42,894 nt of DNA from Alphaproteobacteria bacterium (lineage in GTDB: Bacteria > Pseudomonadota > Alphaproteobacteria > UBA6615). Of the stretch, positions 26,438 through 29,824 are shown in pieces. The stretch spans positions 1 through 42,894 of the forward strand of contig QIGO01000003.1 of the NCBI GenBank assembly GCA_003230015.1. Direction: 5' to 3'. The translations under genes and the position numbers were made by a program. The notes beneath the pieces are model-generated. The model did no database searches, was not told the DNA's origin, and saw only the letters and a list, made by a program, of their open reading frames with translations. Position 1 is the stretch's first letter. Every line of letters starts with the position of its first letter.

Positions 26438-26974
26438 CTATTCGTCCGACGCCAGAGAAAACTCTTCGTGTCCTGTTAAGACCAGCACACTGCGCACGAG
26501 CATCGCCGAGCCTTGCAGCGCCATCAGGCCGGCAAACACGAGAATGGCGGTTTTTACCAGGAACACCCCCGGCAATCCCCCAGGTTGCGTCGACGGTTCC
26601 AGCAGGCGCCAGGACAACTGGACGAACGGCAACGTCGTCCACGCCAGCACGATCAGCCACGGCGCCAGAAACACCAATGTTCCAAATAGGTTAACCCAGG
26701 CCCGGTGGCGCACGTTACCGCGGATATAAAAGATATCCACGCGCACATGACCGCCATGGAGAAATGTGTAGCCGGCACCCAGCATGAACGCCACGCCATG
26801 CTGCCACACATAGACGTCCTGCATCCAAATAAAGCCGGTATTGAAGAATTTCCGCATCACGACAACGGTAAAAGCCGCCACGACGGCGCCAAGCATCATC
26901 CAAGCGGTGCCGCGCCCGACCCATTCGTTGATACCCTCAACGAACGTCACATACCGTCCCCATGAGTCTATCAA
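26438..26974 (-). CDS. dctQ: TRAP transporter small permease subunit
   Basis: Four-TM small protein (FNTGFIWMQDVYVWQHGVAFMLGAGYTFLHGGHVRVDIFY) upstream of dctM. Confidence 0.92.
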   Translation of the reverse strand: MIDSWGRYVTFVEGINEWVGRGTAWMMLGAVVAAFTVVVMRKFFNTGFIWMQDVYVWQHGVAFMLGAGYTFLHGGHVRVDIFYIRGNVRHRAWVNLFGTLVFLAPWLIVLAWTTLPFVQLSWRLLEPSTQPGGLPGVFLVKTAILVFAGLMALQGSAMLVRSVLVLTGHEEFSLASDE

Positions 26975-27000: not shown

Positions 27001-27269
27001 CTAGTGGATAAAATCTAACAGAGGGTACCCATACGACGGCTTTGCGAGTTCACCCGGCGAGGCGCGAGATACGCCGTGATGCCCTCGCATCACAAGTGTC
27101 GCGCAACGCGGCCGGTGAGCTCGCAAAGCCGCCCTTCGGGTCCCGTATCCCGGTATCTGGGGGCGTCAAGACCCTCGACGATGCCTTGGCATCGCCCGCA
27201 CGCCTTCTCCTGCCCAGATACCGGGATACGGGATCGTATGGGTACCATCTGTTAGATTCTATCCACCAG
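27001..27269. other. E1: four-way-junction (cloverleaf-like) intergenic element
   Basis: Outer arms 27001-27036 / 27234-27269 (33 of 36 complementary); hairpin B 27037-27131 (terminal 18-nt arms, 17 of 18 Watson-Crick plus one T-G); mini-hairpin CCC-TTC-GGG 27132-27140; hairpin C 27141-27233 (perfect 21-bp arms). No unpaired nucleotides at the junction. Confidence 0.85.
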
Positions 27270-27312: not shown

Positions 27313-29556
27313 CTATCCGAAAGGGGCAGGTCCGAACCCGTTGGTCCTTGGGAATCCGGCCGGCGGCAACCGGCCGCTTTGTGCGCGTTTGCCCAGCCAC
27401 CCCTGCAGCTGATCGGCACCGAACGTCCGCCTTCGCTCGCCCGTCTGCACGCTCAGACCGTCTTCCAGCTTGAACATCCGCACATCGCGCAGCCCGCCCT
27501 TGGCAAAACGCTGCAGGCGCACGCCTTTGCCGCGTCCCATCTCAGGCAGGTCGTCTTTATGGAATATCAGCAGCTTACGGTTCTCGCCCAGGGCCGCCAC
27601 ATGGTCGCCCTCCGCCGGCACGCACAGCACCGCCTCGCTGCCGCCGCCGACATTAAGCACCTGACGGCCGCTACGGGTCTGCGCGATCACGTCTTTTTCC
27701 GACACCAGAAAGCCGCGCCCATCGGCCGAAGCGACAAGCAGCTGCCGCTCCGGGTCATGCACGAACAGGGCAACGATATCGGTGTCGTTGCCGAACTCGA
27801 GCATCAGCCGCAGCGGCTCGCCATTGCCCCGGCCGCCAGGCAGTTTGTCGGCCCCAAGGCAGTAGAAACGCCCGTTTGTCGCGAATACCAGCAATTTGTC
27901 GGTGGTTTCCGCCGCCACCGCCAGACGGGCCCTATCGCCTTCTTTGTATTTCAGCTCGCCGGCGTCTATCCCATGCCCTCTGATCGTGCGTACCCAGCCC
28001 TTGGCCGAGCAAATAACCGTAATCGGCTCACGCTCGATCATCGCCTCCAGCGGCACCACGACGGCATGCGGCGCGTCGGCGATCTCGGTCCGCCTTTCCC
28101 CGCCAGGATAATTGACGCCGAAACGCGCCTTCATTTCCTTGATTTCTTGGGCCAACCGGGCTGACTTTTGGCCCTCATCGGCCAACAGCGCCGTGATTTT
28201 GTCCCGCTCCCCTTCCAGGTCCGTCATCTCTTTGCGGATTTCCAACTCTTCGAGTTTGCGCAACGAACGCAAACGCATGTTCAAAATCGCCTCGGCCTGC
28301 GCCTCGGTCAATTCGAACCGCGCCATCAATTCCTGGCGTGGATGATCCTCCTCCCGGATGATACGGATCACCTCATCCAGATTGAGATAGACCACCATAT
28401 AACCCGCCAGCACATCCAGGCGCCGGGCTATTTTTTCCAGCCGGTGCTCGCTGCGCCGCACCAGCACCACCAGGCGATGGTCGAGAAATGCCTGCAACAA
28501 ACCGCGCAAGGTCATCACCTGCGGCGTCCGATCCGCGCTCACCACATTCATATTGAGGCTGATACGCGTTTCCAGATCGGTCTGCCGAAACAGGCTTTCC
28601 ATCAGCAGGGCTGGCTCTACATTGCGGCTCTTCGGCTCCAGCACCATCCGCAGATCCTCGGCCGACTCATCGCGCACATCCGCCAGCATCGTCAGCTTGC
28701 GCGCATTCAAAAGGTCGGCTATGCGCTCCACCAGACGCGACTTTTGCACTTGATAGGGAATCTCCGTCACCACCACCTGATATTGGCCACGGTTGAGATA
28801 CTCCACCTGCCACTTCGCCCGCACCCGCAAACCGCCACGCCCGGTTGTATAGGCCTCGACGATGGTCTCCCGATCCTCCACCAGGACGCCCCCGGTGGGC
28901 AGATCGGGCCCCGGCATGAATTCGCACAGCTTGGCGATCGATGCGTTGGGATGTTTGAGCAAATACTGCAGCGCGTCGCAGATCTCGCCGACATTATGGG
29001 GCGGAATATTGGTCGCCATGCCCACGGCGATACCCTGCGAGCCATTGGCCAGCAGGTTCGGAAACGCCGCCGGCAGCACCACCGGTTCTTCATTGTCCCC
29101 GTCATAGGTATCCTGCAGGTCGACGGCGTCCTCGTGGATACCCTCCAGCAGCGCCATCGCCACCGGTGTCAGGCGCGCCTCGGTATAGCGCATCGCCGCG
29201 GCGTTATCGCCATCGATACTGCCGAAATTACCCTGGCCATCCACCAGCGGATAACGCACCGCGAAATCCTGCGCCAGCCGCACCATGGCGTCATAGATCG
29301 CCACATCCCCATGGGGATGGAATTTACCCATGACGTCGCCCACGACCCGCGCGCATTTTTTGAACCCCTGATCCGGATCCAGCCGCAATTGCTGCATCGC
29401 GAACAGCAGCCGCCGATGCACCGGCTTCAAGCCGTCGCGCACATCGGGTAAGGAGCGCGACATGATCGTGCTCAACGCATAGCTCAAATAGCGCTCGCTC
29501 AACGCGTCTTTGAATTGCGTCGGCCTGATCTCGAGAGCGACTGCGGAATCGGACAT
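27313..29556 (-). CDS. parC: DNA topoisomerase IV subunit A
   Basis: [72 protein letters not shown]; followed on the minus strand by a C-terminal beta-pinwheel-like region. Start at [14 protein letters not shown] (29556) preferred to 29568. Confidence 0.95.
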
Positions 29557-29647
29557 AATTTTCCTCAAGTTGGCTGCGTCCCATATACGAGCGATGATCC
29601 GAGGCGGTCAACCGCATCGGCCCGAGACCGCTATGATTCTAGCCTTG

Positions 29648-29824
29648 TACCAAGGAGCGCTGATAATGACCCATAGAGACGGCCTACCATGGTTTTCGGC
29701 AAGGCGCGTGGGCTGCGACGATGCGGTGCATCGTAAAGCCCGCGCAACGCCGTCCGAAAGCCTTGGTAGGCCGCCGTTCCGGTCGCCTGCGATCTCTATG
29801 GGTCATTATCAGCGCTCCTTGGTA
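29648..29824. other. E2: four-way-junction (cloverleaf-like) intergenic element related to E1
   Basis: Perfect 32-bp outer arms 29648-29679 / 29793-29824; hairpin B 29680-29773 (20-nt arms, 18 of 20 Watson-Crick); mini-hairpin CCG-TTC-CGG 29774-29782; short hairpin TCGC-CT-GCGA 29783-29792. No unpaired nucleotides at the junction. Confidence 0.88.

Follow-up and report, generated by a model that had tools for sequence, protein, structure and literature searches.

E1, a probable IS630-type MITE with a two-hairpin core between parC and dctQ of an alphaproteobacterium

The palindromic element E1, located between parC and dctQ in the window (the whole 42,894-nt stretch of contig QIGO01000003.1 analysed here), is very probably, judged from sequence comparison, a copy of a non-autonomous IS630/Tc1-mariner-type MITE that would be mobilised in trans and that contains a widely common two-hairpin core (Table 1). 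Its family has dispersed copies, IS630-type ends, CTAG/TA targets, precise empty sites (of copies other than E1), covarying stems and a common core. The 33-36-bp ends of E1 are most likely bound by an IS630-family transposase supplied in trans, which would excise the element and be its current mover; E1 would insert into the TA within CTAG, duplicating the TA, and its insertion between parC and dctQ would have extended the gap from about 73 bp to 338 bp. The stretch between the ends is a cloverleaf-like, non-coding two-hairpin core common to an alphaproteobacterial family with many end types.

Structure and genomic setting of E1

The outer arms of 36 nt (27001-27036 / 27234-27269) pair with three mismatches (two A-C, one G-A), and the arm of hairpin C (27141-27161 / 27213-27233) pairs over 21 bp with none; coordinates and mismatch counts, re-derived from the sequence, agreed with the original prediction. 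The minimum free energy of a 291-nt stretch including E1 was -179.9 kcal/mol for the plus strand and -199.3 kcal/mol for the minus strand (z = -14.9 and -16.0, respectively), and none of 200 dinucleotide shuffles was equally stable: the palindrome is real and far above the chance level, and E1 stands as a discrete structured element between the two genes. The bounds of the mobile unit, set by homology, are narrower (27004-27266) than the palindromic arms. E1 is flanked by TA on the left and a decayed copy, CA, on the right which, with C and G on the outside, corresponds to a CTAG target. parC and dctQ share the minus strand and are followed by dctM, and dctP is encoded on the plus strand; the distances of 26 bp from E1 to the dctQ start and 43 bp to the parC stop hold for the ORF bounds 26974 and 27313.

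Table 1 Features of E1, its neighbouring genes and the cousin element E2 (positions in the window).
Feature	Position	Strand	Basis
dctQ, neighbour outside E1	26438..26974	-	PF04290; ORF start 26974 (TTG)
Target duplication TA, left, within C-TA-G	27002..27003		TA next to 57/62 type-I ends; empty sites
E1 body, probable 263-bp IS630-type MITE, GTGG...CCAC, no transposase gene	27004..27266		Homologous copies, empty sites in other genomes, fold
Left terminal inverted repeat, type I	27004..27036	+	Matches IS630 end in L091
Core hairpin B	27037..27131		Stem covaries in 23 copies; absent from one-hairpin copies, e.g. G000:C9
Mini-hairpin CCC-TTC-GGG between hairpins B and C	27132..27140		Alignment; E2 has CCG-TTC-CGG
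Core hairpin C (model R1), conserved more widely than any other module	27141..27233		Covariance model searches
Right terminal inverted repeat, type I	27234..27266	-	Arm pairing, comparison with L091
Target duplication, right, decayed to CA	27267..27268		Sequence versus other copies
parC (topoisomerase IV subunit A), neighbour outside E1	27313..29568	-	PF00521; ORF end 27313
E2, cousin element with TACCAAGG... ends; retains hairpin B and mini-hairpin, has lost hairpin C by deletion	29648..29824		Sequence, alignment with E1 family

Copies, ends and target sites

The genome containing the window (G000, 74.6% complete) has a second full copy of E1 (C183:4739-5009, 88% identity), a related copy with one hairpin (C9:841-1004) and a solo end on C7. 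Among 60 relatives, copies were found in only one other genome, and a plasmid collection gave no match. When the extended end was used as a pattern to scan 84,980 genomes, 21 stretches were returned, every one of them from a MAG classified as alphaproteobacterial or proteobacterial, for the most part marine Rhodospirillales; altogether, E1-type copies are dispersed in the own genome and 10 other MAGs. Their anatomy is modular: two-hairpin copies measure 268 bp, those with a single hairpin or a fused form 154-175 bp, and those without hairpins 51 bp. The last are near-perfect palindromes made of two type-I ends alone (L039, L057, L079, L086 and others). Many MAG contigs terminate within or next to such elements (L139, L142, L151, L154, L158, L177), as expected from repeats that break assembly. 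A MITE should be short, free of a transposase gene, dispersed in multiple copies and variably present, and these properties were found in the E1 family (263 bp; the copies described above; the empty sites described below).

The ends of a MITE should also match an IS630-family transposase gene, and for E1 this gene was found at L091, in the MAG G068. It encodes a 184-aa C-terminal IS630 ORF (NF033545, 3.7e-40) with the last residues RGYQALDSIH-stop, whose final codons make up the end repeat CTAGTGGATAGAATCTAACGCTTGGTACCC (E1 counterpart CTAGTGGATAAAATCTAACAGAGGGTACCC; 18/19 bases identical, plus GGTACCC in register). The arms of E1 retain the readings YGYPLLDFIH-stop and YGYHLLDSIH, and an E1-like copy of 268 bp is present in the same MAG. 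L091, the best type-I partner of E1, is without its N-terminal part. A second IS630 element with related ends and an internal deletion (L095) continues at its left end with TTCCCATACGG, where E1 has TACCCATACGA. Type-II elements and an IS630 copy with a 380-aa ORF, located in the same MAG (G065), have TAGTGTCCTG and GAAGTT in common at their ends. None of the IS630 fragments of the 74.6% complete own genome (L093, L098, L102, L104) has type-I ends.

IS630-family elements insert at TA, duplicating it (PMC2170065), and a preference for TA in CTAG is named in the title of Tenzen and Ohtsubo 1991 (cited in PMC2170065). The E1 family follows this behaviour, with the right copy of E1 itself being CA. 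TA adjoins 57 of 62 distinct type-I ends, and the base outside it is C at 52 of the 62, T at 10, and never A or G, the pattern expected for CTAG target sites. Empty sites were sought by joining the flanks of filled sites: that of L117 (type I, G067) is contiguous in G068:C3 with a single TA at the junction, and single-TA empty sites were also present for L126 (in G068:C99), L140 (in G067:C163) and L132 (in G258:C114). The same approach found no empty counterpart for the insertion site of E1 itself.

Two more end types were observed in the own genome. E2, located in the same window, has a 32-bp perfect inverted repeat and shares hairpin B and the mini-hairpin with E1; its family numbers about eight copies in this genome, some of them with hairpin C. 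The third end type, CTAGTGTGGTGGAAC..., belongs to a 191-bp element with one hairpin (L263, G000:C59, core 1501-1595). Some type-II elements (L150, L153, L156, L162, L169) have an extra GC-rich hairpin (GGGGGTCGCGGGGGCGCCCC...) inside hairpin B or C.

Stem covariation and possible roles of the hairpins

Covariation was analysed in 23 complete copies over 94 pairs predicted on both strands (2162 cells): 2059 cells were Watson-Crick, 38 G-T, 32 A-C and 33 other, counts that do not represent independent events, as the copies share kinship. Between close copies, those with at least 92% identity, the core changes were one-sided (43 versus 0 double changes), and paired core positions diverged about 3 times slower than unpaired ones; in distant copies, double changes were far above independence. 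Such a pattern is consistent with DNA-level processes, either stepwise compensation or homogenisation of the arms. G-T and A-C cells did not differ significantly (p = 0.55), so no single RNA strand appears to be selected. The original prediction's argument from wobbles for a minus-strand RNA is thus correct for E1 alone (0 G-T, 3 A-C), whose two outer-stem A-C mismatches would be U-G in that RNA, the third outer-stem mismatch being G-A; selection of a minus-strand RNA in the family has no support.

A secondary effect of E1 on dctQ is possible by analogy with the NEMIS/CREE elements of Neisseria, whose RNA hairpins bind RNase III and for which RNase III cutting has been proposed (PMC2649163). 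E1 would then act as an incidental insulator or processing site, compatible with its being a MITE: RNA reading through from parC would fold as a cloverleaf and be cut (e.g. by RNase III) or slow the polymerase, lowering dctQ co-transcription. The common minus-strand orientation of parC and dctQ, the extreme stability of the fold and the RNase III binding by NEMIS/CREE hairpins point in this direction, but the pattern scan of E1 found neither a promoter nor an intrinsic U-tract terminator and the 23 copies show no single-strand selection, and we consider this role rather unlikely. Less probable still is a core that serves as a functional non-coding RNA gene and spreads on IS630 ends: 23 of 385 alphaproteobacterial genomes keep its sequence and fold, with many end types, and its paired positions diverge slowly, but the equal frequency of G-T and A-C mispairs argues against one selected RNA strand, E1 has no promoter-like site and many copies retain one hairpin or none. 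A structured 5' UTR controlling the dctQM transporter, suggested by the position of E1, 26 bp before the start of the dctQ ORF, its more stable minus-strand fold and its own mismatches, is highly improbable in view of the copies at unrelated loci, the wobbles without strand bias, the negative promoter scan and the weak, sub-threshold Rfam matches. Both this leader and the designed boundary between parC and the transporter of the original prediction are unsupported, given that unrelated loci of the own genome and other MAGs contain this element too, with IS630-type ends and CTAG targets, and that relatives have precise empty sites.

The wide family sharing the core and known repeat families

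As to E1 as a MITE, its core is also found with ends other than type I (TAGTGTCCTGGATC, TAGTGGCTTGTATC, TAGTGTGGTGGAAC, TAGTACTCCCTTTC and more). The covariance model of hairpin C (R1) gave matches in 23 of 385 alphaproteobacterial genomes and only two in a phylum sample of 299 genomes, both from Alphaproteobacteria. The arms of 29 loci (one or two R1 matches per genome plus three in G000, taken at known coordinates) were surveyed: 21 have a detectable outer inverted repeat, which spans 261-274 bp in 19 of them, and a dozen or more different ends were observed. Several weaker R1 matches (E near 1e-6) are supported by this independent outer-repeat anatomy. Ends and core mostly co-segregate in the core tree; L120, with a type-I end yet outside the main type-I clade, may faintly hint at end exchange. 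Co-segregation is compatible both with core spread by end swapping and with co-divergence of core and ends. The two-hairpin core may tentatively be regarded as a conserved functional module (e.g. a transposition-aiding DNA structure or a host-factor binding site) that a dozen or more IS630-type ends have carried through Alphaproteobacteria, by end acquisition or co-divergence; this is possible, though doubtful.

Among the known repeats, RUP of Streptococcus pneumoniae, the proposed cargo of IS630-Spn1, is like E1 a non-autonomous repeat with ends matching an IS630 element and a TA target (PMC2229807, PMC3049150), but it is 107 bp long, has a 9-bp contiguous TIR pairing and no two-hairpin core, and resides in another host phylum. 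The Correia elements of Neisseria (CREE/NEMIS) resemble E1 in their IS-like ends, folded transcript and length classes with internal additions (PMC5039591). Their end, tatagtggattaa..., has TAGTGGAT in common with the E1 type-I end (27001-27020), and an IS630 link for them is possible through this common sequence. However, only about 8 outer bases are common, their classes are 104-108 and 153-157 bp, and a relation of the cores is undemonstrated; E1 is not a Correia element, as the 26-bp repeat (tatagtggattaa..ccggtacgg) is absent and only TAGTGGAT and scattered bases match, compared by eye with the published repeat. The pneumococcal BOX elements share with the E1 family terminal modules and an optional or repeated middle module, but have other ends (compared by their authors with ISSpn2) and no shown sequence relation. 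CIR (Caulobacter, Brucella), also alphaproteobacterial, resembles E1 in its pair of long hairpin arms joined by a linker, but has neither TIRs nor an outer 5'-3' stem, whereas E1 has a 36-bp outer stem, and was rejected. REP/BIME elements, in which REPs of 20-40 nt are tagged with GTAG or CGTC and associated with a RAYT transposase, differ in anatomy. No Rfam family matched E1 at the gathering threshold, and the relaxed threshold gave only chance-level matches, mostly miRNA-type hairpins.

The literature search with the end sequences, with most subscription journals outside its reach, returned only Correia papers and no earlier description of an E1-type element. IS630 MITEs are already known (RUP); for a two-hairpin core carried by many different ends, the papers searched gave no precedent, though one may exist outside them. 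E1 thus belongs to a large, apparently undescribed alphaproteobacterial family with one folded core and many ends, a class of about 270 bp from about 20 genera that is new to the literature searched. The case of E1 warns that such hairpins are easily misread as gene-specific leaders, and its family is a natural experiment in which a non-coding core is kept while the transposon ends change.
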